56,032 nucleotides of DNA from a virus. Positions 727 to 40,160 of the stretch are shown piece by piece (position 1 is the first letter of the stretch; every line of letters starts with the position of its first letter). Location of the stretch: IMG/VR virus record IMGVR_UViG_3300020469_000058, positions 1-56,032 of that record, one strand, 5' to 3'. The notes below the pieces were generated by a model. That model saw nothing but the letters and a program-made list of their open reading frames with translations, did not search any database and was not told the DNA's origin. The position numbers and the translations under genes were made by a program.

Positions 727-730
727 TGTC

Positions 731-2337: not shown

Positions 2338-2930
2338 TAGTCTTTACCTATTGCCTGTCTTGAATCATAGAATACTTTCTGTGAGTTCGATTTACGGAAC
2401 TGTGCAGTCGGTAAGAATGTTGCAATCTCCCACTCTGGAGCAGGAACTTCTGCAAACTTACTCTTGACATGTGAATTCAAGTAGTGTTTAAAACATGGTT
2501 TGTAGTATCGCAACTTTGCAATACCCTGTAATCTCTTGTAAGTAATATTAAACTTTGCATCGTCAGAGTTCTTACTGGACGCAACTTCCATCAATGCATC
2601 CAACATTTTTGCACGAAGGATAGGTGGAAGATAATGAAGGTTGATTCCATAGAATCCACCCTCTGCTGGCCCGACTACAATAATCAATGGGAATGCATCA
2701 TAGTATGGAAGTTTATCTTTAGTCTTTGGGTCATAGAAAAACATCTGCATAGAACCAATAATACCACGATTCGCTCTTTGTTTTATCTGGTCTTCTTTCA
2801 TCAATGCTTCACGATTGATAGACCGCATGTTAGATGCTTTCTTTCTGAACCATTCACGGGATTCTTTGGTACGGGGAGTAACTCCCGCACGGAATGCCTG
2901 TAATTCTAGTCTGTTGAATATATTACTCAT
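2337..2930 (-). CDS. Conserved marine T4-like protein of unknown function
   Basis: The 197-residue basic protein has a central stretch with Asp-Lys-Leu-Pro-Tyr-Tyr-Asp and Gly-Phe-Tyr-Gly-Ile-Asn-Leu-His-Tyr-Leu. I recognise this pattern from uncharacterised proteins of cyanophages and related T4-like phages, but I cannot assign a T4 gene number with confidence. There are no membrane segments or catalytic motifs. The start ATG lies exactly 5 nt after a minus-strand late promoter (2943-2936), with no room for a ribosome-binding site, so the mRNA may be leaderless. Its place between gp4/radical SAM and the gp54-like gene suggests a virion or tail-assembly role (inference). Confidence 0.7.
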   Translation of the reverse strand: MSNIFNRLELQAFRAGVTPRTKESREWFRKKASNMRSINREALMKEDQIKQRANRGIIGSMQMFFYDPKTKDKLPYYDAFPLIIVVGPAEGGFYGINLHYLPPILRAKMLDALMEVASSKNSDDAKFNITYKRLQGIAKLRYYKPCFKHYLNSHVKSKFAEVPAPEWEIATFLPTAQFRKSNSQKVFYDSRQAIGKD

Positions 2931-2934
2931 AGTT

Positions 2935-18804: not shown

Positions 18805-21800
18805 ATGCCAAAGACATTTACATCTAACGTATTCCAATCAACCTATAAGGATGATTTTAAGGACAGTGATAATTATCATCGTGTCCTTTTTAACAGTGGT
18901 AGAGCGGTTCAAGCACGTGAACTTACTCAACTACAAACAATCATTCAAGAGGAAATCGGGAGATTTGGTCGGAACGTCTTTAAAGACGGTGCTGCCGTAA
19001 ATCCAGGCGGCCCTCACGTCAATAGTGATTATGAATTTATTAAACTAGATACTTCAGTAAGAACTTTACCAGACGATACTTCTGTTTTAATAGGACTTGA
19101 GTTCACACATGCCGCAACAAGTACTGCTGCAAGAGTTCTAGAGGTCGTGACTGCTACAGGTTCAGACCCAGCAACACTATATGTTCAATACACAAACACC
19201 TCTGGTGGTGACGTTGGAACAAACCCAGTTCGTATGCAATCGGGTGTAGATATCACAAGTGGTAGTTTTACATTTACAACACAATCAACAAACACTATTG
19301 CAAACCCTGCTGTAGGACGTGGTTGTCAAGTATCAAATGCTGCGGGTGATTTCTTTACTCGTGGTCATTTTGTATTCGCTAAACCTCAATCACTTATTAT
19401 ATCAAAATATACAAGATATCCTACTAAAGTTATTGGTTTTAAAGTAACAGAAGATATTATTACTGTTGCGGATACTAATGAATTGTATGATAATCAGGGT
19501 GCAAATCCTAACCTATCTTCGCCTGGCGCTGATAGATACCGAATTAAACTTACTTTAACAACAAAAGATGACGTTGCCTCAGATGAAAACTTTGTCTTCT
19601 ATTGTGATATTGTTGATGGTAATGTAGTTGACCAAGTAACTGGTGCAGATAATTACAATGCACCTAATACACTTGTTGCACAAAGAACAAAAGAAGAGAG
19701 TGGAGATTATATTGCAAAAGACTTCACTGTTGATTTCAGTGACTCAGCGACTAATCTAGTCGCATCTGTATCAGATGGTGTTGCATATGTAAACGGACAT
19801 CGTGGTGCAACAGAAAAACCTACACCTATTACTATTCCAAAACCAAGAACTGATGTAACTTTAGAGAATGAAGTAACTGGTATTAGTTATGGTCAATTTG
19901 TCTTATGTAGTGAACTAAAGGGCGACATTGGTTCATTGTTTAAGACAGTTAATCTATCAACATCTACTACTAATCCTGCTGCAAGTATTACAGGTACAGC
20001 AAGAGTTCGTTTTGTAGAAAAGAGTGGTGTTAATTTTAAAGTCTATCTATTTGATATCAAGATGAATAGTGGACAGTCTTTCCGAAATATTAAAACACTT
20101 GGTACTAGTACAACTAATAGAGCAATCCCTGTTTTTGAATCTAGTAAAGCAGTGATTAAGGATGCAACTAAAGTAAACTTAGTATATCCTCTTCCTAATC
20201 CAAGACCAAGAGCAATTACAGACGTTGACTTTGAAGTTCAAAGAGTTTCTGCTACGATTTCTAATTCTTCAAGTTCATTCTCTATGCCTAACTTGACTGT
20301 GACTGGTGAAACCTATACCAATACAAGTGATTGGATTGTTATTAATGCATCTACTGGTGCTGTACAAACTGGTGCAACTTTTGGTACTTCTGGTACTACC
20401 TCTATGACTGTTAGTAATGTAGCATCTGCTAATGCTATCGTATATCATAAAATTAACAAAGCATCCCCAGTAGTTAGACCAAAGACATTAACCGATGCAA
20501 CTGCAACCGCAACATTATCAACCGATTCTTTAACTGGTGCAAAATATCTAGATTTAGGTAAAACTGATGTCTATAGTGTACAATCAATTAGACTAACTAA
20601 TTCTGGTGGTACAGATATCTCTCATCAATTTACTGTTGATGATGGTCAACGAGCAGGATTCTATGGTAATGGTCGATTAGTATTAAATGGTGGAGAGACT
20701 CAAAACGGAACAGTTTACTGTGCATTTAAACATTTTGTTCATGGTAATGGAGATTACTTCTCAGTTAACTCTTACGAAGGTAAGGTTGATTATGACAAGA
20801 TACCCGCATTCAAAGTCGGGCCTAGAACATCCGTAAACTTACGTGACGTAATTGATTTCCGTTCTGCGGTAAACTCTAGTAATGTATTTACTACTTCATC
20901 ACAAAATGAAATCCCTGCTAATGGTGATATCTTCCAAGGTGACGTAACATATTATGTCCCTCGTTCAGATAAAATCGTAGTTACCGAACAAGGTGAAGTT
21001 AAAAATATTTTAGGTGAAGCAGGATTTTCTTCTCAGATTCCCGCAACCCCATCAAATACTCTAGGTCTTTTTGAACTAGAACATAACGCATATGGTCTAA
21101 ATGACTCTGACGTAGTTGTAACTCCTCTCAAAGCGAAAGGATTTACAATGAAAGATATCTCTGAACTAGAGAATAGAATTGATAAGTTAGAAGAAGTAAC
21201 AACTTTAAGTATGTTAGAACTTGATACATCTTCACTCTTAGTTCTTGATTCTGCTGGAAACTCTAGAATGAAATCAGGTTTCTTCGTAGATAACTTTGCA
21301 AATAGAAGTTTCTCAGACGCAGAAAACTCAGAATATCGTGCTGCTATTGACCCAACTAAAGGTTTACTTTCATGTGCAACCTTTGAAGATAACGTTGGAC
21401 TTGTATATGACAGTGCCGCATCATCAAACACTATTCTTAAAGGTGATACGATATTCCTTAATTATACACATGTTGAATCAATAAGTCAACCAGTAATTTC
21501 TGGAACAGAGAACGTTAACCCATTCGCAGTTATTACTGGAGAAGGAAATCTTACTCTATCTCCAGCTTCAGATGAATGGTTTCAAACAGCATACAAACCC
21601 GCAAATGTAATTAACAAAACTGCGGAAGAACAACTAGGTGACCTAAACGAAGGTAATCTTGCAGTAGGTACTGCACAACAACGTGGATTCGCTGGCGGTA
21701 GTGGTGCATGGATGTGGTCTGGAGCGCCTTTTATTCCATTAATAGGATTCGGTGAATTCGGTATTGGTGGTGGCGGTGGTGGTATCGGCAACCTCTTTGG

Positions 21801-24003
21801 AGGATGGAGAGGAGCGGGTCAGTGGAACTGGTCTGGTCTAAACACCCAAAGAAGTTCAAACGGTATAAACCGAACTGGTGTGTCTACAACAAACGATGGT
21901 ACATTTACTAGTAGAACTTCAAGTTTTAGTCAAAATGTAGTTGTTGGTAATAGAACAGTTCGTAAGATTGTTGGTGATAAAACTGTATCATTAACATTCC
22001 TTCCTTTCATTCGTTCTCGTGAGGTATCTTTCCGTGCAGAAGGTTTAAGACCTAACACTAGATACTTCCCATTCTTTGATGGTACAGATGTTGCAACTTT
22101 CTGTAAAGAAAAAGCATTCCAAAGACATGCAAGCGGAACGTTCCTAAGTGGTAAAGAAAATAGATTAGCTACTACTCACCCAGAGGGTTCTTCGAATTTA
22201 ATATCTAACTCGAATGGTGAAATTGAAGGTTCATTCTTTATTCCGTCAAGTGAAACAAATCGTTTCCGTGCGGGAACAAGAGAATTTAAACTACTTGATA
22301 TTAGTAAGAATGATGATGACGCTGCTTTATCACATGCATCAAATAACTATGTTGCTCAAGGTACATTGGATACTAGACAAGAGACTATTACATCTACTCG
22401 TATTACTCAGAAGAGAACTCGTAGATGGACAGAGACTACACGTGTCCGTAATCGTGACCCTCTTGCACAATCATTCACAGTAACAAAACCATCTGGAATG
22501 TTTGTAACTAAGGTTCAGACTTATTTTCAAAGCAAGGATACAAGTATTCCTGTTGAATTACAGATTCGTCCTATGGTAAATGGCGCTCCATCTTCTACAG
22601 AGATTATTGGTAATGCGTCTAAGTTCTTGAACCCAAGTGCGGTAAATCTTCCTGCTTCTCAAACACAAGCTGCGGTCTTAAATGCACCCACTACATTTGA
22701 GTTTGATGAACCAATCTTCTTGAATCCAGAAACGGATTATTGTATTGTTCTTCTTGCAGAATCAATTGATTATAATGCTTATGTCGCAGAGACTTATGCA
22801 TTTGAACTTGGTTCTACAGAGAAACGTATTTCACGTCAACCATCTATGGGGTCATTATTTAAATCTCAGAATGGTAAGACATGGGAGCCAGACCAAACAA
22901 AAGACCTTGCATTTAAAATCTTCACTGCTGACTTTGATACTGCGGGTGGTTATGCAGTGTTTGAAAACGCTGCTCTTGAAAAAGAATCAATTTCAAGTAA
23001 TCCATTCTTTACAACATCATCCGATGCGACAGTTACTATGTTATTCCCGAACCACGGTTATGATGTAAGTGATACTATCACAATTTCAGGTGCTGTTGGT
23101 GGTAATGGATTGTCTGCGGGTAATATAAACGGTAACAGAACTGTTACTCACGCAGATGGATTTGGTATTAAGTTTGAAGCGGGTAGTAATGCAAATGCGG
23201 GTGGTAGAGTTGGTGGAGATGCAGTTAAGGCAGATAGACAGGTTCTATTCGATACTGTTGTTCCAGAATTTACAACATTACAACCCGATGACACAAATAT
23301 AACATATAATGTTAAATTTACTTCTGGTAAATCATTTGCTTCTATTGGTCAAACAAGATATCAAAAAGATATTACATACTCTTCTGAGATTCGTATTGGA
23401 GATGAAAACTATTTCACAACTCCAAGACTTATTGCTAAGACTGCAAACGAGTCTGTTGAACTAGGTTCAGGGGTTAAGTCTGCAACATTTAAAGTTAACA
23501 TGACAACAGTCCGTGGAGATGTTTCTCCATTGGTTGATGCACAAAGAGTATCACTCAAAACTACAAACAATATTATTGATAATCAAGCAGCGGCTACTGC
23601 TGCGGGATTCAATGTTCCGTTGAACTATGTTGCAGAAACAACAGCGTTTGGTGGTTCATCACTTGCAAAACACATGACTACAGTCGGTGTTCTTGAAGAA
23701 CCCGCTGTTGGTTTAAAACTAATAATTGGTTGTCTAAGACCAGTTGGTTCAGACTTTGATTTATATTGGAGAGTTGCACAAGATGGTGACAACATCTTTG
23801 ATATAGATTGGACACTAGAATCACCAGAACAAACGATTGCTGCTGATGAAAGAAACTTCCGTGATTATCGTTTCCTAATTGGTGGAGACGGTGGAGATGT
23901 TGATGCATTCTCGCAATATCAATTTAAGATTGTAATGCGTACTAATAACTCTGCAAAAGTTCCTTTCTTCAAGGACTTACGTGCAATTGCAATGGCAACA
24001 TAA
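18805..24003 (+). CDS. Giant baseplate/fibre protein with DUF4815-like N-terminus
   Basis: The 1732-residue protein starts with Tyr-His-Arg-Val-Leu-Phe, Arg-Ala-Val-Gln-Ala-Arg-Glu-Leu-Thr-Gln-Leu-Gln and Glu-Glu-Ile-Gly-Arg-Phe-Gly near 23-55. This is the mark of large cyanophage structural proteins with a DUF4815-type domain, thought to occupy the gp9/gp10 wedge position. A short coiled-coil segment (Glu-Leu-Glu-Asn-Arg-Ile-Asp-Lys-Leu-Glu-Glu) lies near 790. A Gly-rich loop near 980-1000 has six Gly in a row with one interruption. Predicted beta domains follow to the end. It probably bridges the wedges and the fibres encoded downstream (inference). Confidence 0.65.
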   Translation: MPKTFTSNVFQSTYKDDFKDSDNYHRVLFNSGRAVQARELTQLQTIIQEEIGRFGRNVFKDGAAVNPGGPHVNSDYEFIKLDTSVRTLPDDTSVLIGLEFTHAATSTAARVLEVVTATGSDPATLYVQYTNTSGGDVGTNPVRMQSGVDITSGSFTFTTQSTNTIANPAVGRGCQVSNAAGDFFTRGHFVFAKPQSLIISKYTRYPTKVIGFKVTEDIITVADTNELYDNQGANPNLSSPGADRYRIKLTLTTKDDVASDENFVFYCDIVDGNVVDQVTGADNYNAPNTLVAQRTKEESGDYIAKDFTVDFSDSATNLVASVSDGVAYVNGHRGATEKPTPITIPKPRTDVTLENEVTGISYGQFVLCSELKGDIGSLFKTVNLSTSTTNPAASITGTARVRFVEKSGVNFKVYLFDIKMNSGQSFRNIKTLGTSTTNRAIPVFESSKAVIKDATKVNLVYPLPNPRPRAITDVDFEVQRVSATISNSSSSFSMPNLTVTGETYTNTSDWIVINASTGAVQTGATFGTSGTTSMTVSNVASANAIVYHKINKASPVVRPKTLTDATATATLSTDSLTGAKYLDLGKTDVYSVQSIRLTNSGGTDISHQFTVDDGQRAGFYGNGRLVLNGGETQNGTVYCAFKHFVHGNGDYFSVNSYEGKVDYDKIPAFKVGPRTSVNLRDVIDFRSAVNSSNVFTTSSQNEIPANGDIFQGDVTYYVPRSDKIVVTEQGEVKNILGEAGFSSQIPATPSNTLGLFELEHNAYGLNDSDVVVTPLKAKGFTMKDISELENRIDKLEEVTTLSMLELDTSSLLVLDSAGNSRMKSGFFVDNFANRSFSDAENSEYRAAIDPTKGLLSCATFEDNVGLVYDSAASSNTILKGDTIFLNYTHVESISQPVISGTENVNPFAVITGEGNLTLSPASDEWFQTAYKPANVINKTAEEQLGDLNEGNLAVGTAQQRGFAGGSGAWMWSGAPFIPLIGFGEFGIGGGGGGIGNLFGGWRGAGQWNWSGLNTQRSSNGINRTGVSTTNDGTFTSRTSSFSQNVVVGNRTVRKIVGDKTVSLTFLPFIRSREVSFRAEGLRPNTRYFPFFDGTDVATFCKEKAFQRHASGTFLSGKENRLATTHPEGSSNLISNSNGEIEGSFFIPSSETNRFRAGTREFKLLDISKNDDDAALSHASNNYVAQGTLDTRQETITSTRITQKRTRRWTETTRVRNRDPLAQSFTVTKPSGMFVTKVQTYFQSKDTSIPVELQIRPMVNGAPSSTEIIGNASKFLNPSAVNLPASQTQAAVLNAPTTFEFDEPIFLNPETDYCIVLLAESIDYNAYVAETYAFELGSTEKRISRQPSMGSLFKSQNGKTWEPDQTKDLAFKIFTADFDTAGGYAVFENAALEKESISSNPFFTTSSDATVTMLFPNHGYDVSDTITISGAVGGNGLSAGNINGNRTVTHADGFGIKFEAGSNANAGGRVGGDAVKADRQVLFDTVVPEFTTLQPDDTNITYNVKFTSGKSFASIGQTRYQKDITYSSEIRIGDENYFTTPRLIAKTANESVELGSGVKSATFKVNMTTVRGDVSPLVDAQRVSLKTTNNIIDNQAAATAAGFNVPLNYVAETTAFGGSSLAKHMTTVGVLEEPAVGLKLIIGCLRPVGSDFDLYWRVAQDGDNIFDIDWTLESPEQTIAADERNFRDYRFLIGGDGGDVDAFSQYQFKIVMRTNNSAKVPFFKDLRAIAMAT

Positions 24004-24209
24004 TGAAATCGTATGTTGCTATAGAAGGAAATTCATCTTTAGCAAGAGACCCAAATTCGGGGACAATTGTTAATATAAATAAAGATGAGATAAGTAAAGC
24101 TCGTTTATTAAAAACGAAAAGAAAAGAACAAGAAAGAGAGTTTGATGATTTAAAGAATGAAGTAAGTGAAGTTAAAGAACTCCTTAACAAACTAATAGAG
24201 AAACTGTAA
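24003..24209 (+). CDS. Small coiled-coil protein
   Basis: This 68-residue protein lies between two structural genes, overlapping each by one base (TAATG). Residues 1-25 resemble a short conserved cap (Ser-Tyr-Val-Ala-Ile-Glu-Gly-Asn-Ser-Ser-Leu-x-Arg-Asp) that I know from small genes after giant structural proteins in cyanophages. Residues 30-68 are a strongly charged coiled coil with heptad Leu/Val spacing, ending Leu-Leu-Asn-Lys-Leu-Ile-Glu-Lys-Leu. The function is unknown; it may act as an oligomerisation or fibre-assembly factor. Confidence 0.75.
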   Translation: MKSYVAIEGNSSLARDPNSGTIVNINKDEISKARLLKTKRKEQEREFDDLKNEVSEVKELLNKLIEKL

Positions 24210-25714
24210 TGGCTACCGCAAAACCGACAATTACAACGATTAATGATACGTTCACTACGTTGGTTACTAATACCAACACTGTCTCATTAGACTTAGGTGC
24301 AACTGGTCGATTAAACACGAATCAGGACTCTAGTGCCGTTGCAGCTATTAATGAACTGGAACTAGGTATTCGTGGTACTTCGAATGACTTAGTTGCAACT
24401 GATTTATCACAAGCAGGAATTACTGCAAATAACGTTGTGTCTGCACTAGTAGAACACGATGTAGATATGCATGGTTCTGGAGGTGGTAATGCCGCTTCTG
24501 ATTTAACAACAAATGCAAATGATATTGTATCTGGTGTTAATGAACTAGAAGTTGCTATTCGTGGAACTGATAATGGACTAGTCGCTAATATCCTATCAAC
24601 CACTGCAACTAACTTAGTTACTGGTATTGGTGAACTTGACTCTGATATTGGTGCAAGACCACACACAAATCTTACAACTGGTGCAAAGAATCTTACTGCT
24701 GCTATCAACGAACTTGAAGCAGACATATTTAACGCAGAGGGTGGAACTAAAAGAACTCTTGCGTCCCTTGGTACAACCGATAAAACTGGTATCGTTGATG
24801 CAATCAATGAACTAGAAACTGCAATCCGTGGTACTACAGCAAATTACACTATTAGTACTACTAGTAACGATTTAGTAGGTGCGGTAAACGAACTTGATAC
24901 ATTGCAAGGTAATGTTTCAATGGGAACAAGTGCATCTACTGTTACAGGTGCAATTAAAGAACATGATGATGAGTTAGGTACAATTACTGCTCTTGCAATG
25001 GGTACAACTGCATCTACAGTATCTACTGCGATTGCAGAACTAGAAGTAGAGATTGATACACTTAATACAAAAGTCGAACCCGCCCAAGCATTAACAACTA
25101 CTGCAACTACATTATCAGATGCAGTAAATGAACTTGATGCACTACAGGGTGACAGTGCAATGGGTACAACTGCAACTACCGTTACAGGTGCGATTGCAGA
25201 ACTAGAAACAGAGATTGACACACTCAATACCTTTGTTGAACCTACACAATCATTGACTACTACTGCAACAACTGTTGCGGATGCAATCAACGAACACGAT
25301 GCAGAGATTGGTGCTGCCTCTCTCAACACATCTGCTACCACATTACGTGGTGCAATCAATGAACTACATACAGAGGTTGGTGCTGCAATTGGGGCAACTC
25401 ATAACACAACCACTGGTAATATTGGTTCATCATTAAACTTACTAGATAGTGCAGTTGGTAACCTTGATGGTTTAAATGCTACCGATGTTCCTGCTGCGGG
25501 TCATAATAACTTAGTATCCGCTATCAACGAAGTTGCTGCAAGAGTAACTGGACTTGATGCTTCTGGTGCTGAGGTTGATTCTAGAATCGGGTCGTTATCA
25601 AATCTACACGCTGCTTTCACAGGAACAGAAGATGACAGTATAGTGAATGCTATTAATGCATTAAGGGGTGATATTCCACTTATATTCGATGAGAATGGAA
25701 CACAACTTAATTAA
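24209..25714 (+). CDS. Repeat-containing fibre protein
   Basis: This 501-residue protein consists of about 11-12 repeats of roughly 30-40 residues. Each has the core Ala-Ile-x-Glu-Leu-Glu or Ala-Val-Asn-Glu-Leu-Asp, preceded by a Thr-Thr-Ala-Thr-x-Val-type stretch and often followed by Ile-Arg-Gly-Thr. The alternation of a short helix (coiled-coil like) and a Thr/Ser strand is typical of trimeric phage fibre shafts. There is no enzyme domain or signal peptide. It probably forms a shaft attached to the giant baseplate protein. The DNA repeats are degenerate, so the array is old. Confidence 0.7.
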   Translation: MATAKPTITTINDTFTTLVTNTNTVSLDLGATGRLNTNQDSSAVAAINELELGIRGTSNDLVATDLSQAGITANNVVSALVEHDVDMHGSGGGNAASDLTTNANDIVSGVNELEVAIRGTDNGLVANILSTTATNLVTGIGELDSDIGARPHTNLTTGAKNLTAAINELEADIFNAEGGTKRTLASLGTTDKTGIVDAINELETAIRGTTANYTISTTSNDLVGAVNELDTLQGNVSMGTSASTVTGAIKEHDDELGTITALAMGTTASTVSTAIAELEVEIDTLNTKVEPAQALTTTATTLSDAVNELDALQGDSAMGTTATTVTGAIAELETEIDTLNTFVEPTQSLTTTATTVADAINEHDAEIGAASLNTSATTLRGAINELHTEVGAAIGATHNTTTGNIGSSLNLLDSAVGNLDGLNATDVPAAGHNNLVSAINEVAARVTGLDASGAEVDSRIGSLSNLHAAFTGTEDDSIVNAINALRGDIPLIFDENGTQLN

Positions 25715-25731: not shown

Positions 25732-28344
25732 ATGACTGTTCCATTAAAGTTAAAAGACAGTGCTGCACCCACTGAGTTGCAAGTATTCTCTTCTGCGGAG
25801 GAGAACTACTTAGCATATCTAGCGGGTCAACATATGGCGGGGTATGCCAATGGTACGCCTGGCACTTTAAGCACTACCAACACAGGAAACCTTGTTGGAA
25901 CATTAACTGATACATCATTTGATTCTGCTGTAGGAACTGGTGGTGGCGGGTCTCTATTAACAATTGGTACAACCACAACTTCCCTTTATCAAGCAGCGGG
26001 AAGTATTTCTGACGCAACAATAAGAAGTTCTAATAATTTCCGTCTTCCTGTAATGCAGAGAGACAGTGATGGTCAAAGAGTTATCCGTGAAATGGATGAC
26101 TCAGATATGGATTCTTTAATAACCAGAATTAGAAGTCGTGTTTTTACATCTGACTATCCAAGTACATATAGACTAGGGTCTTCAACTCCGACAGGAAGTT
26201 GGGGTGCTGTTATATCAAATTTAGCGACAGATACTAGAACTGATGGAACTTCTATAGGTTATAATATTTACAGAAAAACTAATGATACTTCACCCACTAA
26301 GGTATTACCGTTTTCTATAAAACGTGCTAGTGGGTCTACAGGAACGTATCAAGGTCTTCAGTTGATGACCGATGACCAAGTTAGACAGACCTTTGCAGAT
26401 TATCTTAGAAATAAAATTGCCTCAGAAGTATCATCTAATGGAATTGGTTCTTATAAAATATATCCTTCTGGTACAACACCAACGGGTCAAGGTTTGCCTG
26501 GCACATGGGCTGCAAAAGGAACTGCTACAGATACTAGACAGGTTGTTAGTGACGTAAACTATACAAGGGCAAGGTCATCAACCTATTCAAAACTTAGAAC
26601 GTCAACATATAGTGCTGATTATTCAAGAAATCGTTCGTCTACTTTTTTAAGTCACAGTGACGCTACTAGGACAAGTAGTTACACAACAACTCGTACTACC
26701 GATAGAACAGACCACTATGCCGCATCTGGTTTTCTAGGTAACTATACTGGTGACTTTACTGGTAATACAGAAAGAGTCTATTCAAGAAATAGAAGTAGTG
26801 CTTTAAACTACCAAGGTAATTATACTCAAAACTTTACTGCTGCTTATTCTAGATTAAGCGTATTCACAGGAAACTATGCGGATGCCGAAGGTAATAATTT
26901 TATACGACAAAGTAATGTAGTTAATAATTATACTGGTAATTATGCTAATGCTTTTGCTGGAAACTATGGTAGAATAAACGTATACTCTGGTAATTATACT
27001 GGTGAATACACAAGAAATAGTACAAGAGATAGTCAATCAATTGATGATGCCAACTACGCCAGAGACTTTACAGGTAACTATGCCAGAAACTTTGATAGAA
27101 GTAGAGAATCTAACTATACTAGAAATAGTACTGATGCAGTCTTGACAAACTTCCAGAGAACATCTACCAGAGATTCTAACAGAGATTCAAATAGAACTAT
27201 AACTGGTGACTTTACTGGTGACTTTACTGGTGACTACACAAGAAATTATACTGGTGATTTCCAAAGAACTTCTATTCAAACGACAAATTATACTGCCGTT
27301 TACCAAAGAGGTAGACATAAGCAAGGTAATGTTCAATACTATACTGGTGATTTCATAGGACAAAGATATTATACTAGACAAAGACAAAACTATGCATATG
27401 GTTGGACTGGTTATTATTATTCAAGGTCTAATTCTACTACGGATGATTACTGGAGAGTAATCTATGGTGGGCCGAGTCATGTTAATGGTGACCAATATGG
27501 TATTTCTGTTTTTGCTAAAATATATGCCTCCAGTGCGGATAATACAGGGTCAAGCCAGCAACTTGGGATGACTAATGCAGCTACTACTGGGTTAGATGAC
27601 CCATCAAGTGTGTTACCTTTTAGTCAATATCTAACAATAACTTCATACAATTATACTACTGGAATACCTAGCTATGAAGATTTTGTTGGAGGTACATGGG
27701 CAAATTTCATTACTAAAATGAAACTAGTAACGGGTATGATAATTGGTAATTATGAATATGAGAAGGGTAGTTTTCAGGGTCGATATCATAGTAATTTATA
27801 TAATGATTACCCCGATGCTGATTTTCCATATTGGGATTTTTACTCTGTAAGACGTAGGTCTGCGGCATACTTTACTGGTAACTTTGCAGCATCATTTATT
27901 GGTGAATATCAAAATACCTTTGCACGTGCATTCACAAGAAACAGTACTGCAAACTCAACGACTGAGTATGCGGGTGATTATGCGGGAGATTTTGCGGGAA
28001 ATTTCTTGGGTGATTATGTTGGTGACTTTACTGGTGATTACACAAGATTTTTCAGTGGTCAATATTCTAGAAACTATGTTAGTACAAGAAGTTCTAATTT
28101 TAGTGGAGGAGACTCATATTCTCGAACCTTTACTGGTAATTTCATAGGAAACTTTACTAGAACATTTACTGCTAATTATATTGGTAATTATACTAGAAAC
28201 TATGCGGGTCAATATACAGGTAATTATTTAAGAAACTTTCAAGGAAACTTTGCTCGAACCTTTACTGGTAACTATGCGGGTCAAACCATAGGTAGTGGTA
28301 ATCAAAATATTGAGACTTATACTCTCTACGTAAGAACAGCATAA
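25732..28344 (+). CDS. Tetrapeptide-repeat structural protein A
   Basis: In this 870-residue protein, residues 1-260 form a globular cap that is paralogous to the start of the next gene (shared Glu-Glu-Asn-Tyr-Leu-Ala-Tyr, Ser-Leu-Tyr-Gln, Tyr-Arg-Leu-Gly-Ser and Ile-Lys-Arg-Ala-Ser-Gly blocks). Residues about 276-556 and 712-850 are runs of a four-residue repeat, (Asp/Asn)-(Tyr/Phe)-x-(Gly/Arg). Between them, at about 557-705, is a non-repetitive domain with several Trp, Tyr and Gly residues. The last 20 residues (Ser-Gly-x-x-x-Ile-x-Thr-Tyr-Thr-Leu-Tyr-x-Arg-Thr-Ala) also match the paralogue. I infer a virion fibre or surface protein. No enzyme motif is visible. Confidence 0.75.
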   Translation: MTVPLKLKDSAAPTELQVFSSAEENYLAYLAGQHMAGYANGTPGTLSTTNTGNLVGTLTDTSFDSAVGTGGGGSLLTIGTTTTSLYQAAGSISDATIRSSNNFRLPVMQRDSDGQRVIREMDDSDMDSLITRIRSRVFTSDYPSTYRLGSSTPTGSWGAVISNLATDTRTDGTSIGYNIYRKTNDTSPTKVLPFSIKRASGSTGTYQGLQLMTDDQVRQTFADYLRNKIASEVSSNGIGSYKIYPSGTTPTGQGLPGTWAAKGTATDTRQVVSDVNYTRARSSTYSKLRTSTYSADYSRNRSSTFLSHSDATRTSSYTTTRTTDRTDHYAASGFLGNYTGDFTGNTERVYSRNRSSALNYQGNYTQNFTAAYSRLSVFTGNYADAEGNNFIRQSNVVNNYTGNYANAFAGNYGRINVYSGNYTGEYTRNSTRDSQSIDDANYARDFTGNYARNFDRSRESNYTRNSTDAVLTNFQRTSTRDSNRDSNRTITGDFTGDFTGDYTRNYTGDFQRTSIQTTNYTAVYQRGRHKQGNVQYYTGDFIGQRYYTRQRQNYAYGWTGYYYSRSNSTTDDYWRVIYGGPSHVNGDQYGISVFAKIYASSADNTGSSQQLGMTNAATTGLDDPSSVLPFSQYLTITSYNYTTGIPSYEDFVGGTWANFITKMKLVTGMIIGNYEYEKGSFQGRYHSNLYNDYPDADFPYWDFYSVRRRSAAYFTGNFAASFIGEYQNTFARAFTRNSTANSTTEYAGDYAGDFAGNFLGDYVGDFTGDYTRFFSGQYSRNYVSTRSSNFSGGDSYSRTFTGNFIGNFTRTFTANYIGNYTRNYAGQYTGNYLRNFQGNFARTFTGNYAGQTIGSGNQNIETYTLYVRTA
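26555..27405 (+). repeat. 12-nt coding repeat array (tetrapeptide units), first block
   Basis: The array is coding and degenerate, with units of 12 nt encoding (Asp/Asn)-(Tyr/Phe)-x-(Gly/Arg), inside protein A. It is less regular than the array in the next gene and includes Ser/Thr-Arg variants such as Arg-Ser-Ser-Thr. A second shorter block lies at about 27865-28285. Confidence 0.8.
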
Positions 28345-28347
28345 ATA
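28340..28347 (+). promoter_or_regulatory. Possible late promoter variant (CATAAATA)
   Basis: This octamer differs from TATAAATA at the first base. It overlaps the stop of protein A and lies 7 nt before the ATG of protein B (28355). Confidence 0.35.
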
Positions 28348-28354
28348 GGTTGAT

Positions 28355-31300
28355 ATGGGAACTACCACACTAAAACTTGAAGGTACAAATGGTGACCTCA
28401 AGGAAATAACAACCACAGAGGAGAATTACCTTGCGTATCAAGCAGGGTTGCATCTTTCTGCGTTGGATTCTAGTGCAGTAGGAACACTTACCGCATCCTC
28501 AACTAATAACGCTTTAATCGGAACATATACCGATACTACTTTTGACGATGCAGTTGGAACACACGGATTTGCTAGTGGTAATGTTCCAGTAATACAAACA
28601 ACAACATCATTATATCAAAGAGAAGGTATCACTAACTTTGCGGGTGACTCCGATGCATTTAGATATCCTATTGAGTTTAATGATAATAGTGGAACAAGTG
28701 AGATTCATGAACTTGATTCCTCAGAAGTAGATACACTCACAGACCGTTTAACAAGTCGTATTGCAACATCTGAATATCCAGGCACATACCGATTAGGTTC
28801 GTCTTCGCCAGGCGGAACATACTCAACATATAAAGCTGGAGTATTCTCTGATAGATTACAAACAGGTTCTTCAGGAACAGTATATAACCTTTATGTGAAG
28901 TCTAGTATGTCTTCACCGACTGTAGTAAGACCTGTCTCAATTAAACGTGCATCTGGATTGACTGGTTCTTTCCAAGGTCTGAAAGAAATGACCGATGCAG
29001 AAATTAAATATAGTTTTGGGTCAAGAGTACAATCTAGAATATCAAGTGGTTCTAATGGAGTTGGAACATATCAATTAAGAAGTAATGTTCAAGGCGCTCC
29101 AACAGATACAGGAACTTGGGCGACTCGTGGTACTGCAACGGATACTCGTTTTAACCTAGTAAACACTGATTATAGTGCAAACTATCAAAGGGTTAGTACA
29201 ACAGATTCTACTAGAAACCGTACCGCAGATTTCTCTAGAAGTGTTGATTACGTAGGTAATTACTCAAGGAATTTCACAGGTAATTTTCTAGGTGAATATA
29301 CTGGAGACTTTACAGGTAACTTTGTTGGAGACTTTGTTGGGGATTATTCCAGAAGTTTTATTGGAGATTACGTAGGTAATTACTCCAGAGACTTTGAAGG
29401 TAACTATACTGGTGATTACTCTAGAAACTTCCTTGGTAATTATATCGGAAACTATGCTCGTGCATATTCTGCTGTATATTCAAGAACAAGAGTCACTACA
29501 TTTACTGGTGATTTCACTGGTAACTATGTCGGAAACTATTCAAGAAACTATAGTGCTGCATATACTAGAAACAGTACTGCGGAATTCATAGGAGATTTCA
29601 CTGGTAATTATACAGGTAATTATACAAGAAATTATTCTGCAAACTATCAGAGAACACGTGTTACTAATTTCCTTGGAGATTTTACTGGTGACTATACAGG
29701 AAACTACGCAAGAAACTTTGAAGCAGATTATACCAGAGATAGAGTCACAACATTTACAGGTAATTTTTTAGGAGATTACACAGGAAACTACGCTAGAAAC
29801 TTTGAAGCAGATTATCAGAGAACACGTGTTACTAACTCAGCGGGAACATACACTGGTAACTTTGAAGGAAACTATACAGGTAACTATGCCAGAAACTTTA
29901 GTGCTGATTATCAAAGAACTCGTTCAACTGATTACACACAAGTTTTTACTGGTAACTTTGAAGGAAACTATACTGGTAACTATGCTCGTAACTACACTGG
30001 AAACTACGCTAGAAACTTTAGTGCTGATTATCAAAGAACACGTATTACTGATTACGTAGGAGATTATGCAGGCGACTATACAGGAAATTTCTTAGGTGAT
30101 TATACAGGTAACTATGCACGTAATTATAGTGCGAACTATCAAAGAACTCGTGTTACTACATACACTGGAGATTTTGCGGGAGACTATGCGGGTGACTTCG
30201 TAGGTAACTATGCTAGAAACTTCCTTGGTAACTATGCTAGAAATTATCATGGTGACTTTGAGGGTAACTACACAGGAAACTATGCTCGTAATTATCTTGG
30301 TAACTATGCTCGTAACTACACAGGTAACTTCGTAGGTGACTATTCAAGAACTCGTGCTACTGCATACGCAAGGACACGTGCTACTGCATATTCAAGAACT
30401 CGTGCAACTAACTATGCGGGTGGTGGTAAAGGTGGTAACGCTTATAACTACACTGGTAACTTTGTAGGTAACTACACTGGTAACTTCGCTGGTAACTACA
30501 CAGGTAACTTTGTAGGTAACTACGGAAGAACTCGTGCTACTAACTATGCAAGAGCGTTTACTGCAAACTATGCCAGAAACTTTAGTGCCGCATATACCAG
30601 AGACCGTAATACAAACTATGCTAGAAACTTTACTGCAAACTATGCTAGAAACTATACAAGAACATCTACCAGAGATTCTAATAGAACTCGTATTACTGAT
30701 TACGTAGGTAATTTCTTAGGTGACTATACTGGTAACTATGCTAGAAACTTTAGTGCTGATTATCAAAGAACATCTACCAGAGATTCTAACAGAACTCGTA
30801 TCACTACATACACGGGTGACTTCTTAGGTAATTACACTGGTAACTATGCAAGAAATTATAGTGCAGACTACGCTAGAAACTTTAGTGCAGACTATGCTAG
30901 AACACGTGTAACAGATTACACAGGTAACTTTGTCGGTGATTTCTTAGGAGATTACACTGGTAACTATGCAAGAAACTATCAGGCAGACTATGCTAGAACT
31001 CGTGTAACAGATTACGTTGGTGATTATGTTGGTGACTTCTTAGGTAATTACGTTGGTAACTATGCAAGAAACTATAGTGCTGATTACCAGAGAACTCGTG
31101 TAACTGATTATGCGGGGAACTTTGTAGGTAATTACACTGGTAACTATGCTAGAAACTATCAGGCAGACTATACTAGAAATAGTACAGATACTTTTGTAGG
31201 TGATTTCTTAGGAGATTACACTGGTAACTATGCTAGAGAATTTACTGCGGATTATTTAAGAAATAGTACTGCAACATTCTTGGGTGATTTTACGGGTGAT

Positions 31301-31762
31301 TATACAGGAGACTATGCAAGAGCATTTAGTGCAGACTATACAAGAAATAGTGTTGCTGATTTTGCGGGTAATTTCTTAGGTGAATATACAGGAAACTATA
31401 ATAGAAGTTTTACTGCTGATTACCAAAGAACTAGGGTGTCTACTTATAGTGCCGCCTATAGTAGAACAAGAACATCTCTATATAGTGCAAACTATCAGAG
31501 AACAAGAAGTTCTGCATACACAAGGAATTCTACAGTAGATTCTACAAGAAACTCAACTGCGGTATTTACTAGAACTTGTGTTGTTGTACGTTCAAGTGCA
31601 TACAGTAGAACTAGAACAAGTGTGACAACATTTACTGGTGATTATACTGGTAACTTTGTTGCAGAATTTACAGGTGACTATGTGGGTAACTATGTCGGAA
31701 CAACTATTGACTCAGGAAGTTCAGTAATTAAGACATACACTCTTTATCAGAGAACCGCATAA
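28355..31762 (+). CDS. Tetrapeptide-repeat structural protein B
   Basis: In this 1135-residue protein, residues 1-265 form a cap domain paralogous to that of the preceding gene. From about 271 to 1113 it is almost pure four-residue repeat, (Asp/Asn)-(Tyr/Phe)-x-(Gly/Arg), roughly 210 units with very few interruptions. Longer periods of about 8-10 units recur, marked by Asn-Tyr-Ala-Arg-Asn-(Phe/Tyr)-Ser-Ala-Asp-Tyr-Gln-Arg-Thr-Arg-Val-Thr. Tyr, Asn, Gly, Thr and Arg dominate; Pro and Trp are lacking in the array, and Cys occurs once near its end. The C-terminal tag matches protein A. A regular period of four suggests a repetitive beta structure such as a solenoid or fibril (inference). It is probably a virion fibre. 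Confidence 0.8.
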   Translation: MGTTTLKLEGTNGDLKEITTTEENYLAYQAGLHLSALDSSAVGTLTASSTNNALIGTYTDTTFDDAVGTHGFASGNVPVIQTTTSLYQREGITNFAGDSDAFRYPIEFNDNSGTSEIHELDSSEVDTLTDRLTSRIATSEYPGTYRLGSSSPGGTYSTYKAGVFSDRLQTGSSGTVYNLYVKSSMSSPTVVRPVSIKRASGLTGSFQGLKEMTDAEIKYSFGSRVQSRISSGSNGVGTYQLRSNVQGAPTDTGTWATRGTATDTRFNLVNTDYSANYQRVSTTDSTRNRTADFSRSVDYVGNYSRNFTGNFLGEYTGDFTGNFVGDFVGDYSRSFIGDYVGNYSRDFEGNYTGDYSRNFLGNYIGNYARAYSAVYSRTRVTTFTGDFTGNYVGNYSRNYSAAYTRNSTAEFIGDFTGNYTGNYTRNYSANYQRTRVTNFLGDFTGDYTGNYARNFEADYTRDRVTTFTGNFLGDYTGNYARNFEADYQRTRVTNSAGTYTGNFEGNYTGNYARNFSADYQRTRSTDYTQVFTGNFEGNYTGNYARNYTGNYARNFSADYQRTRITDYVGDYAGDYTGNFLGDYTGNYARNYSANYQRTRVTTYTGDFAGDYAGDFVGNYARNFLGNYARNYHGDFEGNYTGNYARNYLGNYARNYTGNFVGDYSRTRATAYARTRATAYSRTRATNYAGGGKGGNAYNYTGNFVGNYTGNFAGNYTGNFVGNYGRTRATNYARAFTANYARNFSAAYTRDRNTNYARNFTANYARNYTRTSTRDSNRTRITDYVGNFLGDYTGNYARNFSADYQRTSTRDSNRTRITTYTGDFLGNYTGNYARNYSADYARNFSADYARTRVTDYTGNFVGDFLGDYTGNYARNYQADYARTRVTDYVGDYVGDFLGNYVGNYARNYSADYQRTRVTDYAGNFVGNYTGNYARNYQADYTRNSTDTFVGDFLGDYTGNYAREFTADYLRNSTATFLGDFTGDYTGDYARAFSADYTRNSVADFAGNFLGEYTGNYNRSFTADYQRTRVSTYSAAYSRTRTSLYSANYQRTRSSAYTRNSTVDSTRNSTAVFTRTCVVVRSSAYSRTRTSVTTFTGDYTGNFVAEFTGDYVGNYVGTTIDSGSSVIKTYTLYQRTA
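29165..31697 (+). repeat. Long 12-nt coding repeat array (about 210 tetrapeptide units)
   Basis: The DNA repeats with a 12-base period encoding (Asp/Asn)-(Tyr/Phe)-x-(Gly/Arg). Codons vary within units (TAT/TAC, GGT/GGA, AGA/CGT), but stretches such as 30446-30525 are almost identical from unit to unit, which shows recent expansion or recombination. Superimposed higher-order units are roughly 100-130 bases long. Confidence 0.85.
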
Positions 31763-31801: not shown

Positions 31802-32254
31802 ATGGCAAGAGTATGGTTAGATAATGCATTCTGGGAAACCCCCAAAAAACAAATGTTGAATGCAATCAGCGAAGAAAGTGTTGATAATAAAGAGATTCGT
31901 CAAGTTCATAAACTGAACAGACACAATAATAATGGAACTGAGAACGCTCTATTCTTAGAGGCAGTCGCTTACATTACAGAAGAAAAGATTGATGCTGCAA
32001 GTAAGAAACGTCTTGAAAAGAAACAAGCAGAAGCAGAACTTGAGAAACAAAAACAATTAGAACATGAACGTGCAAAGAAGTTAGAAAAACTTTTTGAATA
32101 TAAACTAGAGACTTTTGAGATTGCTGAAATCAAAGATTCTAAAAACAGACTATTAAAATCAAAGTTAAGACGTTCTAGGTCTATCCCAGAAGTAAACTTA
32201 TATGCTATGATGATTGTGAAGGAATCTATAGAGAATGAAATCGACTCAAAGTAA
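31802..32254 (+). CDS. Charged helical protein of unknown function
   Basis: The 150-residue protein begins Met-Ala-Arg-Val-Trp-Leu-Asp-Asn-Ala-Phe-Trp and has a long Lys/Glu-rich helix at about 68-100, likely a coiled coil. A good ribosome site (TTAGGAG) precedes the ATG. The 3' end overlaps the glycosyltransferase start by 20 bases, so the two are co-expressed. I do not recognise the family. Its place after the repeat fibres and before two modifying enzymes suggests a fibre-assembly or adaptor role, but this is only inference. Confidence 0.65.
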   Translation: MARVWLDNAFWETPKKQMLNAISEESVDNKEIRQVHKLNRHNNNGTENALFLEAVAYITEEKIDAASKKRLEKKQAEAELEKQKQLEHERAKKLEKLFEYKLETFEIAEIKDSKNRLLKSKLRRSRSIPEVNLYAMMIVKESIENEIDSK

Positions 32255-32984
32255 AGGATTTGTAATTGTAGCGTCTAAGAATCACAACTTCTATATTTAC
32301 GCTTGCAATTTAATGGAATCAATCAAAGACTTCTATCCAGAAGCACTCATTACTCTGGTTACCGAAGAAAGATTCTTGGATGACCGTGCAGATGAAGCTG
32401 ACCAAATAATCTTTTGTACCGACCACTATCGTGCAAAACTATGGGGTATGGCACAAACTCCGTATGATATTACCATGTATGTTGATGCAGACATGGACTG
32501 TGAACACGAAGATATAATAACTGTATGGGATGAGATGCAAGATTATGATATGGTCTTCCATGAACTTACCAAAGAACGTGAAAAGTTTTATGCAATTCGT
32601 GAATTTAAATATGAAGATAAAAGGGAGAAGTTCCGTCTATGCGGAGGAGTTTGTCTCTATAGAAGTGAGAATCCATTAGTCCGTGAATTTATGGATGATT
32701 GGTTTGAAATGTATAATCTCCAACACACTAATGAGTGGCAACCAAAAGGGTTTGACCACGACCAATTTCAAAAGGATTTAAAACACTTTGACCAAACAAC
32801 TCTCTGGTACATGACAGAGAAGATGGAAAAATATAAAGATTTAAAAATAGGAATCTTCTCAGATGATATTAGATGGAATTATTTCACTCAATATGCATAT
32901 GAAGGATTGAAATCAATAGAAGGAAAACCACCTATATTAAGACATTACTCAGGGTCTTTGAAGAAGGATAAACTTATAGTATGA
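32235..32984 (+). CDS. GT-A-type glycosyltransferase
   Basis: The 249-residue protein starts with a Rossmann-like strand (Gly-Phe-Val-Ile-Val-Ala-Ser). A Val-Asp-Ala-Asp-Met-Asp stretch follows at 83-88, where D84-A85-D86 is the DxD motif that binds the metal and nucleotide sugar. Later, a Phe-Asp-His-Asp-Gln segment and the ending His-Tyr-Ser-Gly also fit glycosyltransferases of the GT-A fold. The sugar donor and acceptor are unknown. It overlaps its neighbours at both ends (32235-32254 and 32981-32984). Flanked by repeat fibres and a tail fibre, it may glycosylate a virion protein (inference). DNA glycosylation is the other possibility. Confidence 0.75.
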   Translation: MKSTQSKGFVIVASKNHNFYIYACNLMESIKDFYPEALITLVTEERFLDDRADEADQIIFCTDHYRAKLWGMAQTPYDITMYVDADMDCEHEDIITVWDEMQDYDMVFHELTKEREKFYAIREFKYEDKREKFRLCGGVCLYRSENPLVREFMDDWFEMYNLQHTNEWQPKGFDHDQFQKDLKHFDQTTLWYMTEKMEKYKDLKIGIFSDDIRWNYFTQYAYEGLKSIEGKPPILRHYSGSLKKDKLIV

Positions 32985-33649
32985 TAGACATTCCGATTAA
33001 TAATAAAGATGTGAAACAAGCATTAGATAATTTCTTATGGTATTATAACAATAGAGAAGTATTATCTAAAGAGGTTCATCTCCATGGTGAAGCAAAGGAC
33101 AGAAGTCACTGGGTTGGTACAAAACACAGAGATGAAATCATTGCTCAAGACACAAACCATGAAGGATTTCCAGATGCAGTTCATGGATACTCTTTAAAAT
33201 CGGATAGAATTCAGTTTGTTGAAAGAAATAATCCAAATAATGCATCTTATATATCAAAATTTGGTGAACTCAATACTGAACTTTGTACAATATTATCCAC
33301 ACGTAATAACGCATTAGCACAACTTTATCCCCCAAATGGACATATTTCGTGGCATAATAATGCAAATGCATCTGCATATAATATTATTTTCTCTTGGTCA
33401 GAGACGGGAGAAGGATGTTTTAAATATGTTGATGGTCATACAGGTGACGAAGTTGTCATGCAAGATGTAAAAGGATGGCAGTGTAAAGCAGGATATTTTG
33501 GTGCATATGGTGAACCTTGGTATAAAAGGGTGTATCATGCAGCCGAGACTGACTGTTGGCGATTGACCGTATCTTACATATTTGACCGAACTGATATGTC
33601 TATGGGTCTACAAGACGATATAATAGAAGAAATAATGTCTGATTTTTGA
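32981..33649 (+). CDS. 2OG-Fe(II) oxygenase-like protein
   Basis: This 222-residue protein has the core pattern Tyr-Pro-Pro-Asn-Gly-His-Ile-Ser-Trp-His-Asn-Asn-Ala-Asn at about 116-129, later a distal His186 and Arg194, as in the double-stranded beta-helix of 2-oxoglutarate/iron oxygenases. The first facial-triad motif reads H125-N-N127 rather than the usual H-x-D. Either Asn replaces Asp or the metal site is altered. Related proteins occur in cyanophages. It overlaps the glycosyltransferase gene by 4 bases (ATGA). A hydroxylation-glycosylation pair acting on fibre proteins is a tempting reading, not shown by the sequence. Confidence 0.6.
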   Translation: MIDIPINNKDVKQALDNFLWYYNNREVLSKEVHLHGEAKDRSHWVGTKHRDEIIAQDTNHEGFPDAVHGYSLKSDRIQFVERNNPNNASYISKFGELNTELCTILSTRNNALAQLYPPNGHISWHNNANASAYNIIFSWSETGEGCFKYVDGHTGDEVVMQDVKGWQCKAGYFGAYGEPWYKRVYHAAETDCWRLTVSYIFDRTDMSMGLQDDIIEEIMSDF

Positions 33650-33720: not shown

Positions 33721-34089
33721 ATGTTGACACCAAACTACGAAGATATTACAATTACACAAGGTGCAGATGTAGCGATAGAAATACATCTCATCAATGACAG
33801 CGACAGTGCATATGACCTTACCAATAGGTCTGTAGCATCTAAAATGAAAAGAAATTATACCGATTCTGCGGGTGACCCAGATACGGTAACATTTAATGCG
33901 TCTATAATTTCCCCAGCAACTTCGGGGATTGTAAATCTCTCACTAACTAATACTCAAACAGATGCGTTGAAGACTCGTGGACGTTATGTCTATGATGTAG
34001 AAATATCTTATGTCGATAGTGATTCCAACACAATAATCCAAAGAGTCCTCGAAGGTCAAGCAGAAGTAAGTCCTTCGGTCACTAAATAA
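33721..34089 (+). CDS. Small beta-sandwich structural protein (fibre-associated)
   Basis: The 122-residue beta-rich protein contains Ile-Thr-Gln-Gly-Ala-Asp-Val near 12-18, Tyr-Asp-Leu-Thr-Asn-Arg-Ser-Val-Ala-Ser-Lys-Met near 31-42 and Tyr-Val-Tyr-Asp-Val-Glu-Ile near 88-94. It ends Val-Leu-Glu-Gly-Gln-Ala-Glu-Val-Ser-Pro-Ser-Val-Thr. The pattern matches small cyanophage proteins found directly upstream of tail fibres and resembles the N-terminal domain of BppU-like baseplate proteins. It probably lies at the fibre attachment point (inference). It is the first gene behind a late promoter; the long tail fibre follows after 11 bases. Confidence 0.65.
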   Translation: MLTPNYEDITITQGADVAIEIHLINDSDSAYDLTNRSVASKMKRNYTDSAGDPDTVTFNASIISPATSGIVNLSLTNTQTDALKTRGRYVYDVEISYVDSDSNTIIQRVLEGQAEVSPSVTK

Positions 34090-39371: not shown

Positions 39372-40160
39372 ATGGCATATAGTAGAATAAATAGTAGAAG
39401 CGATTTCATAGATTACTGTCTGCGTAGACTGGGTCACCCTGTCATCGAAATAAACATAGATGATGGACAATTGGATGACCGTGTCGATGACGCATTACAA
39501 CTATTCAATGAATATGTTGGTGAAGGTTCTCATAGAGTATATCTTCCAGTAACAATCACTTCGGATATGACAACAAGAGGATATCTAGATTTTGATTTAG
39601 ATACAACTGGTGTTAGTAATGCAAATGACATTTTAAATGTTGTTCGTGTATTACCTATCAATAGTGAAAGTGGTAGTTCAAGTTTCTTTGATGTTAAGTA
39701 TCAAATGCGTCTCAATGACATGTGGGACTTACAAACAGGTCTATCTGACATGGCATACTTTGAACAGATGCAACAATACTTATCACTTGTTGATATGAAA
39801 ATGACAGGACATCCCCAGATACAATACCAGAAGGCAAACAATAAACTCCACATCTTTGGTGACATTGGTGCGGGAAGAGACCTTAAAGCTGGTATGAAAA
39901 TTTTAATTGAAATGTATATGGCAACCGATATCAATGGTAATGGTAAAGCATATGATAACATGTTCTTAAAAGAATATGCAACTGCATTAATCAAAGAACA
40001 ATGGGGTGCAAACCTAATTAAATTTGAAGGAATGGTATTGCCAGGCGGTGTACAACTTAATGGTAGACAAATTTACGAAGACGCAAAACAAGAAATCGAA
40101 GTAATACGTCAAAGAATATATAATGAATATGACACACCACCAGATTTCTTTATGGGATAA
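39372..40160 (+). CDS. 13: Neck protein gp13
   Basis: The 262-residue protein begins with Arg-Ser-Asp-Phe-Ile-Asp-Tyr-Cys-Leu-Arg-Arg-Leu-Gly-His-Pro and has Gln-Leu-Asp-Asp-Arg-Val-Asp-Asp-Ala-Leu near 33-42. Both are conserved in gp13 of T4-like phages. It ends Asp-Thr-Pro-Pro-Asp-Phe-Phe-Met-Gly, also typical. In T4, gp13 and gp14 form the head neck that joins capsid and tail. It opens the conserved cluster gp13-gp14-gp15-gp16-gp17. The ATG is 6 nt after a late-promoter-like octamer, with no clear Shine-Dalgarno sequence between. Confidence 0.85.
   Translation: MAYSRINSRSDFIDYCLRRLGHPVIEINIDDGQLDDRVDDALQLFNEYVGEGSHRVYLPVTITSDMTTRGYLDFDLDTTGVSNANDILNVVRVLPINSESGSSSFFDVKYQMRLNDMWDLQTGLSDMAYFEQMQQYLSLVDMKMTGHPQIQYQKANNKLHIFGDIGAGRDLKAGMKILIEMYMATDINGNGKAYDNMFLKEYATALIKEQWGANLIKFEGMVLPGGVQLNGRQIYEDAKQEIEVIRQRIYNEYDTPPDFFMG

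Follow-up and report, generated by a model that had tools for sequence, protein, structure and literature searches.

The stretch of 56,032 nucleotides analysed here in full (the window) carries two repeat proteins, which we call A and B, and downstream enzyme genes. They lie in the interval from the VrlC position to gp14 and have tail-fibre and LtfC-like genes as neighbours. VrlC has an equivalent place in HTVC008M. The T4 structural gene set is present and in order, with PHROG matches for baseplate, sheath, TerL, portal and capsid proteins, and the capsid protein is 71% identical to that of C48C1, 64% to that of Melnitz-3 and 61% to that of HTVC008M. Judged by these genes, the source, a marine phage, is T4-like and of the Kyanoviridae type. 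We also considered a cyanophage, but psbA (Photo_RC) was absent from 14 carrier virus records (64-164 kb), among them the 149-kb record of L010 with a 100% identical cap, and from C48C1.

Table 1. Features of the A/B locus and its surroundings (positions in the window).
Feature	Position	Strand	Matches, layout or motifs
Baseplate protein with DUF4815, VrlC position	18805..24003	+	Pfam DUF4815 1.7e-57; phrog_358; upstream border of host-recognition cluster
Tail-fibre-like protein, 501 aa	24209..25714	+	phrog_25848 tail fiber 1.5e-15
Repeat protein A	25732..28344	+	870 aa; cap, repeats, non-repeat insert, repeats, C-terminal tag
A first tetrapeptide block, several registers	26560..27348	+	
A non-repeat insert	27349..27882	+	
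A second tetrapeptide block	27883..28284	+	
A C-terminal tag	28285..28341	+	end ETYTLYVRTA
Repeat protein B	28355..31762	+	1135 aa; cap, array, C-terminal tag
B N-terminal cap, conserved, ~270 aa	28355..29170	+	
B array, ~206 tetrapeptide units	29171..31702	+	almost all one register
B C-terminal tag	31703..31759	+	end KTYTLYQRTA
Small basic protein, 150 aa	31802..32254	+	adjacent in all complete loci
Glycosyltransferase (GT), GT-A type, GT8-like	32235..32984	+	D84xD86, D186Q187, H237
2OG-Fe(II)-dioxygenase-fold protein	32981..33649	+	H125-x-N127 ... H186 ... R194
LtfC-like tail-fibre assembly protein	33721..34089	+	phrog_3304 5.5e-15
Large tail-fibre/structural protein, 1751 aa	34101..39356	+	phrog_9729 1.8e-21, phrog_697 1.6e-20
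Head-tail adaptor Ad2, gp14 position	39372..40160	+	phrog_211 7.2e-38; downstream border of cluster

A sequence-only reading of this DNA had described two paralogous proteins with a common cap and C-terminal tag and about 300 tetrapeptide units, some 210 of them in the second protein, and in this it was right. The caps align over their full length, B is 41% identical to A over residues 10-419, and we count 206 units in B (residues 273-1116) and 89 in ten stretches of A, for a sum of 295. ETYTLYVRTA is the exact last ten residues in 42 of 107 distinct family members. The span given to the arrays, 26555-31697, also takes in the B cap and the A insert, the latter possibly a folded domain. A strict period of four was claimed for both proteins. 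In B, 98.8% of the Phe/Tyr residues fall on one phase (mean 38% and maximum 46.5% in 1000 shuffles); in A the share is 56% (shuffle maximum 48%) because the register shifts between stretches. Position 1 of the B unit is Y/F in 161 of 203 cases, and positions 2, 3 and 4 are T/A/V/S, G/R/A and N/D/T. The autocorrelation of B is 0.05 at lag 3 and 0.27 at lag 4; its top short period is at lag 8 (0.335), with 0.362 and 0.338 at 28-32 residues. The strongest higher-order periods are thus 2 and 7-8 units rather than the 8-10 units proposed; the periods given by TRF are 84-120 nt, equal to 7-10 units. As for the many N-x-T motifs described, B has 38 N-x-S/T sequons, only moderately more than its shuffles (mean 24, maximum 33), and the 23 in A are inside the shuffle range (mean 17).

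The 21 copies of the YTGN unit are written in 9 DNA versions; with such diverse codons behind identical units, the constraint acts on the protein. Against the ortholog in L014, the B array has a dS of 0.72 and a dN of 0.09, and all 8 of its 8 indels are whole units. The B array is under purifying selection. Proline and lysine make up 1% and 0.5% of the residues in the family's arrays, and the B array has no proline.

Searches of Pfam, PHROGs and PDB sequences with A and B gave no convincing match (in Pfam, none at all), in agreement with the earlier suggestion of a new repeat outside the described families. Pentapeptide repeat proteins (period five, A(D/N)LXX), already dismissed in that reading, are excluded by the period of four and the lack of a Pfam match, and a collagen-like Gly-X-Y fibre by the low lag-3 value relative to lag 4 and by the proline-free B array. 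The triple-stranded beta-helix of T4 gp5 is an intertwined trimer with a VxGxxxxx octapeptide, to be compared with the lag-8 peak of B; gp5 was matched weakly, and by VTGN arrays only. AlphaFold2 modelling of the cap with about 45 units gave a mean pLDDT of 39 and about 25 over the array, and therefore says nothing for or against the new solenoid, amyloid or silk fold that had been proposed.

Directly 3' of B, overlapping genes for a small protein, a GT and an oxygenase form one operon, suggesting co-expression. The sequence-only reading had passed over the GT and oxygenase genes, and also how widely the family extends among relatives. The small protein is a possible assembly factor. In the GT, D84xD86 and H237 supply the DxD motif and C-terminal His of GT8/GT-A enzymes and are invariant in all 27 sequences and in the divergent set. 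Its best family matches are weak, to PF01501 (3e-4 in L166, at 20.8 bits below the cut-off of 24.3) and PF00535 (1.4e-3), and the window GT reaches neither; NCBIfam searches with the GT and PDB profile searches with the GT and the oxygenase returned chance matches only. The oxygenase gene product is predicted to have the 2OG-Fe(II)-dioxygenase double-stranded beta-helix fold: its model has a pLDDT of 94, and the top 50 PDB matches in a fold search are all 2OG oxygenases, including PHD2, P4H and AspH (best E 6e-6, with low TM-scores of 0.26-0.40 and high rmsd). R194, invariant and eight residues past H186, provides the basic residue for 2OG binding. The HxD/E...H metal triad is absent and an invariant HxN replaces HxD, so catalysis is uncertain; AspH and halogenases also lack the acid of this triad. 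Stand-alone copies of the oxygenase occur after a tail-tube gene and in a replication region, one of each, and thus the family is not exclusive to the arrays.

To follow these associations across relatives we used three separate starting points and scored only loci with enough flank. Starting from the cap, all 33 of 33 loci have the small gene, GT and oxygenase within 2.5 kb downstream, and the association is also complete from the oxygenase (47/47) and from the GT (47/47). We also compared 78 distant GT loci; for the majority, identity to the L167 query is 27-33%, and that query has 29% identity to the window GT. In this set the small gene is present in 77 loci and the oxygenase in 75, and a cap or repeats in all except two, both cut off upstream. 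As these loci share ancestry, the apparent count of independent observations is inflated. The linkage survives a changed gene order, with the oxygenase before the GT in L362, L383 and L398, and a separation of the two in L358 and L367. In L166 the GT and the oxygenase each adjoin their own tetrapeptide protein or its operon, and nine large genomes have one such GT each. L155 appeared to be an exception without a cap, but its cap protein lies farther upstream, at 416-3334. The examined regions of the array-less phages HTVC008M and Melnitz-3 have no cap, small gene, GT or oxygenase, and a tblastn search of 50,697 GenBank phage records found the small gene, GT and oxygenase together in C48C1 only. 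In IMG/VR, the cap occurs in at least 180 stretches and the linked GT in at least 305.

Among the closest known systems, WJE88074.1 of C48C1 (OQ984149, a record that lists no host; 3347 aa, annotated 'hypothetical protein' with no function assigned) resembles A and B in cap, aromatic tetrapeptide arrays and C-terminal tag, and the genes downstream of it match those of the window phage, but it is one giant protein rather than two and is 34% identical to B. The VTGN arrays of YP_007675557.1 from S-RIM2, found in cyanophage structural proteins, share the period of four, the x-T-G-N pattern and a T4-like tail cluster; they are aliphatic where those here are aromatic, the examined stretch has no cap, GT or oxygenase, and we rejected homology with A and B because the similarity is limited to low-complexity VTGN. 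The host-recognition cluster of pelagimyophages, with tail fibres and GT8 genes between VrlC and gp14, occupies a place like that of the A/B locus, although the parts of that article drawn on here say nothing of tetrapeptide arrays or of a module that joins a GT and an oxygenase (PMC7029224). In that comparison, the HTVC008M stretch does not contain the module. Mimivirus offers a virus-encoded repeat protein with its own 2OG oxygenase and GT, collagen with the lysyl hydroxylase/glucosyltransferase L230 (PMC9546862), but there the repeat is Gly-X-Y and the chemistry is on lysine, which like proline is nearly missing from the arrays here. The freshwater glycofibril TLP-4 (PDB 9ikm) also has linear tetrapeptide repeats and, going by the title of the CryoSeek II paper, is glycan-coated; its (S-X-T-A)n chain has no aromatic position and weakly matches VTGN arrays only (E 0.014).

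In the relatives, the predicted GT and oxygenase genes beside those of the repeat proteins suggest a kind of tail fibre not yet described, one that carries chemical decoration. The explanation that we favour, and consider fairly likely, is that A and B serve as tail-fibre or adhesin proteins and that the adjoining enzymes modify them, most likely by glycosylation on Thr/Ser. A fibre-like protein, as first proposed, agrees with the virion-type gene context, and A and B would be virion components within the host-recognition cluster. The role of the conserved cap at the N-terminus is probably to attach or assemble the proteins; the variable [Y/F]-[T/A/V/S]-[G/R]-[N/D/T] array would form an extended shaft, and the conserved C-terminal tag closes each protein. 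We infer that the enzymes are active and that the arrays are their substrate. The GT8-like GT would most likely add sugar to the many Thr/Ser hydroxyls, the modification of A and B probably being O-glycosylation, and the oxygenase would hydroxylate side chains in a separate or preparatory step. Among other acceptors, Tyr cannot be universal, being absent from unit position 1 in L131 and L134, nor can Asn, of which there is little at position 4 in the L121 and L142 arrays; collagen-like prolyl or lysyl hydroxylation is rejected on the scarcity of both residues. A more specific proposal, in which the oxygenase hydroxylates and the GT then glycosylates the arrays to give a glycan-coated linear tail fibre, would make this the bacteriophage equivalent of collagen with its hydroxyl and sugar groups, and would make phages a possible origin of the glycofibrils seen in the environment; we offer it tentatively, as a doubtful extension.

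The GT, with or without the oxygenase, might instead alter structures on the host surface, such as the lipopolysaccharide O-chain, excluding competing phages, with its position in the cluster incidental. This is how the pelagimyophage GT8 genes, many of them between VrlC and gp14, are read in the parts of the published account used here (PMC7029224). However, an enzyme acting on the host surface would have no need to remain next to a single repeat-protein family while lineages diverged deeply and genes changed order, and this GT is absent from array-less HTVC008M and Melnitz-3; moreover, mimivirus L230 was an LPS enzyme by first annotation and later proved to modify collagen (PMC9546862). We think a host-surface role unlikely. 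It also seems improbable to us that the enzymes act on some other product of the operon, be it the 1751-aa tail fibre, the 501-aa fibre protein or the 150-aa protein. Those genes are adjacent too, and the last is linked as tightly as the enzymes (77/78 distant loci), but the hydroxyl-rich neighbours in all loci with flank are the repeat proteins, and L166, where the GT and the oxygenase each have a different tetrapeptide protein, or the operon of one, next to them, points the same way.

That the arrays form ordinary fibre shafts that carry no modification, perhaps of intertwined trimeric beta-structure, and that the enzymes are hitchhikers with different functions would fit the stand-alone oxygenase copies and the VTGN arrays of S-RIM2, where such enzymes are absent from the examined 24-kb stretch and, by tblastn, from the whole record. 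The linkage of the GT with aromatic arrays or the cap is nevertheless unbroken, with a single GT there in each genome, and we give this reading little credence. The amyloid-like or silk-like fibre of the sequence-only reading draws on the regular aromatic spacing and the near absence of Pro and Lys; with a structure prediction that lacks confidence and a tail-fibre operon as context, we regard it as very improbable. Modification of A and B by the adjoining enzymes is the reading that we retain.

The arrays are covered by no family in the searched libraries, yet IMG/VR has at least 180 stretches with the cap that accompanies them and at least 305 with the linked GT. Should the enzymes modify the fibre, phage adhesins would have a post-translational chemistry dedicated to them. 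This would matter for host recognition, for the evasion of bacterial defence by the fibre, and for the interpretation of those glycosyltransferases and 2OG oxygenases in marine T4-like phages that have so far gone unexplained.

The main new result is a conserved enzyme module that accompanies the two tetrapeptide-repeat proteins, A and B, in the host recognition region of the window, which is a complete 56-kb IMG/VR record. Its genes form a T4-like structural cluster, running from the baseplate through a DUF4815 protein in the VrlC position (the upstream border of the host recognition cluster), a tail fibre, A, B, a small protein, a predicted glycosyltransferase (GT), a predicted 2OG-Fe(II)-dioxygenase-fold protein (the oxygenase), an LtfC-like assembly protein and a large tail fibre to the head-tail adaptor, followed by sheath, terminase, portal and capsid. 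The interval holding A and B is termed the "host recognition cluster" in a pelagimyophage study (PMC7029224), and Pelagibacter phage HTVC008M has the same gene frame around it. The closest GenBank capsids are those of phage C48C1 (71%), Methylophilales phage Melnitz-3 (64%) and HTVC008M (61%). A search for psbA in C48C1 and in a set of carrier records gave no hit, and a cyanobacterial host is thus unlikely.

Features of the window and of related loci (L-numbers) retrieved for comparison; L401 is C48C1
Feature	Position	Length	Remarks
Tail-fibre-like protein	window 24209-25714		directly upstream of A; own INELxxxIRGT-type repeated segments
Gene A	window 25732-28344	870 aa	ORF uninterrupted, adjoins B
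Gene B	window 28355-31762	1135 aa	ORF uninterrupted, adjoins A
GT	window 32235-32984		motifs D84xD86, D186Q187 and H237, all invariant
Oxygenase-fold protein	window 32981-33649		AlphaFold2 pLDDT 94
Relative of A and B	L058:9986-16081	2031 aa	non-repeat insert
Second, different GT8-like gene	L166:10932-11696		PF01501 0.0053; adjoins oxygenase
Epimerase and dehydrogenase genes	L401:35326-37226
Stand-alone oxygenase paralog	L401:18267-18920
Stand-alone oxygenase paralog	L401:40130-40804

The four-residue repeat that the sequence-only reading had described in A and B is real. We count about 206 units in B and about 89 in A, the latter spread over ten shorter stretches, with a unit consensus of [Y/F]-[T/A/V/S]-[G/R/A]-[N/D/T] and higher-order periods of 8 and 28-32 residues. 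In B, 98.8% of the Phe and Tyr residues fall on a single phase of four, a share that never exceeded 46.5% in 1000 shuffles; in A it is lower (56%, with a shuffle maximum of 48%) because the stretches of A shift register. One and the same peptide unit is encoded by many different DNA spellings, and comparison of the array with its nearest ortholog (L014) gave a dN of 0.09 and a dS of 0.72. All eight array indels relative to L014 are whole units, as are 96 of 121 over ten orthologs, a count to be read with the preference of the aligner for unit-sized gaps in repeats in mind. The AlphaFold2 pLDDT of the array is about 25, which may reflect disorder, an obligate trimer, or a requirement for modification.

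In viral contigs, a search with the N-terminal cap returned at least 180 relatives. Comparison of 107 distinct full-length members shows a persistent cap and C-terminal tag but variable arrays: units are all-Phe in L131 and L134, NYAGPT or NYLGEASGAV in L072 and L077, and some members, such as L058, carry non-repeat inserts. Thr is the commonest array residue in these 107 members (15%), with Pro at 1% and Lys at 0.5%. No description of this family turned up in the libraries searched. By eye, the L058 insert resembles a PA14 carbohydrate-binding domain, with no match in Pfam.

The enzymes accompany the repeat proteins at every distinct locus with sufficient flank in three separate retrievals (33/33, 47/47 and 47/47). 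The loci counted are the top-scoring ones and have common ancestry, so that the counts do not represent independent events. A stricter linkage test used 78 loci of distant GT relatives, where we found the small gene (a 150-residue basic protein in the window) at 77, the oxygenase at 75, the cap at 66 and tetrapeptide arrays at 68; only two (L331 and L339) lack both cap and arrays, and both are cut off upstream. Gene order within the module differs in L166, L358, L362, L367, L383 and L398. As controls, the examined regions of the array-less relatives HTVC008M and Melnitz-3 contain none of the cap, small gene, GT and oxygenase, nor does a stretch of cyanophage S-RIM2 with VTGN arrays. Nine large genomes each contain exactly one GT of this kind. 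Counter-evidence to the linkage comes from the oxygenase: among 78 distant oxygenase loci, 61 have a stand-alone gene with neither GT nor repeats; C48C1 has two such paralogs, one of them after a tail-tube gene; and a second copy is also present in a 149-kb record whose cap is identical to that of the window. The specific partner of the repeat proteins is therefore the GT, not the oxygenase. Of the stand-alone paralogs in C48C1, L287 and L298, one directly follows a tail-tube gene and another sits in the replication region.

The GT is GT-A/GT8-like; 13 of 27 family members give weak Pfam GT2 matches, and one distant member gives a GT8 match (3e-4). The second GT8-like gene of L166 lies on a phage contig in a Gammaproteobacteria MAG; all three matches in the bacterial genome collection (L165, L166 and L167) are surrounded by the phage module and are apparently of phage origin, their contigs having been binned into MAGs. 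In the case of the oxygenase, the best 50 PDB fold matches to the model all belong to the 2OG oxygenases (prolyl hydroxylases, AspH, AlkB and JmjC), albeit with low TM-scores (0.26-0.40), and the metal motif H125-x-N127...H186 with R194 is invariant down to 28% identity. The invariant Asn of HxN replaces the customary Asp or Glu throughout the family (alignments A2 and A6), making for an unusual predicted metal site, and catalytic activity of the predicted oxygenase is accordingly uncertain.

What these enzymes act on can be read in more than one way. On a rival reading, they might modify host LPS instead of A and B, in line with how the pelagimyophage study (PMC7029224) reads its GT8 genes. 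A precedent for modification of a virus-made repeat protein is mimivirus collagen, which has its own 2OG hydroxylase and GT, and whose L230 was initially annotated, wrongly, as an LPS enzyme (PMC9546862). The window resembles that system in encoding repeat proteins together with a predicted 2OG-type enzyme and a predicted GT. C48C1 also has genes for a nucleotide-sugar epimerase and a UDP-glucose dehydrogenase, which could provide sugar donors.

We hypothesize that the repeat proteins are enzymatically modified. A and B would be tail fibres or adhesins, and the GT and oxygenase would modify them, with the arrays as putative substrate. The modification would most likely be O-glycosylation, with Thr and Ser as putative acceptor residues, and a candidate order of steps has the oxygenase acting before the GT.
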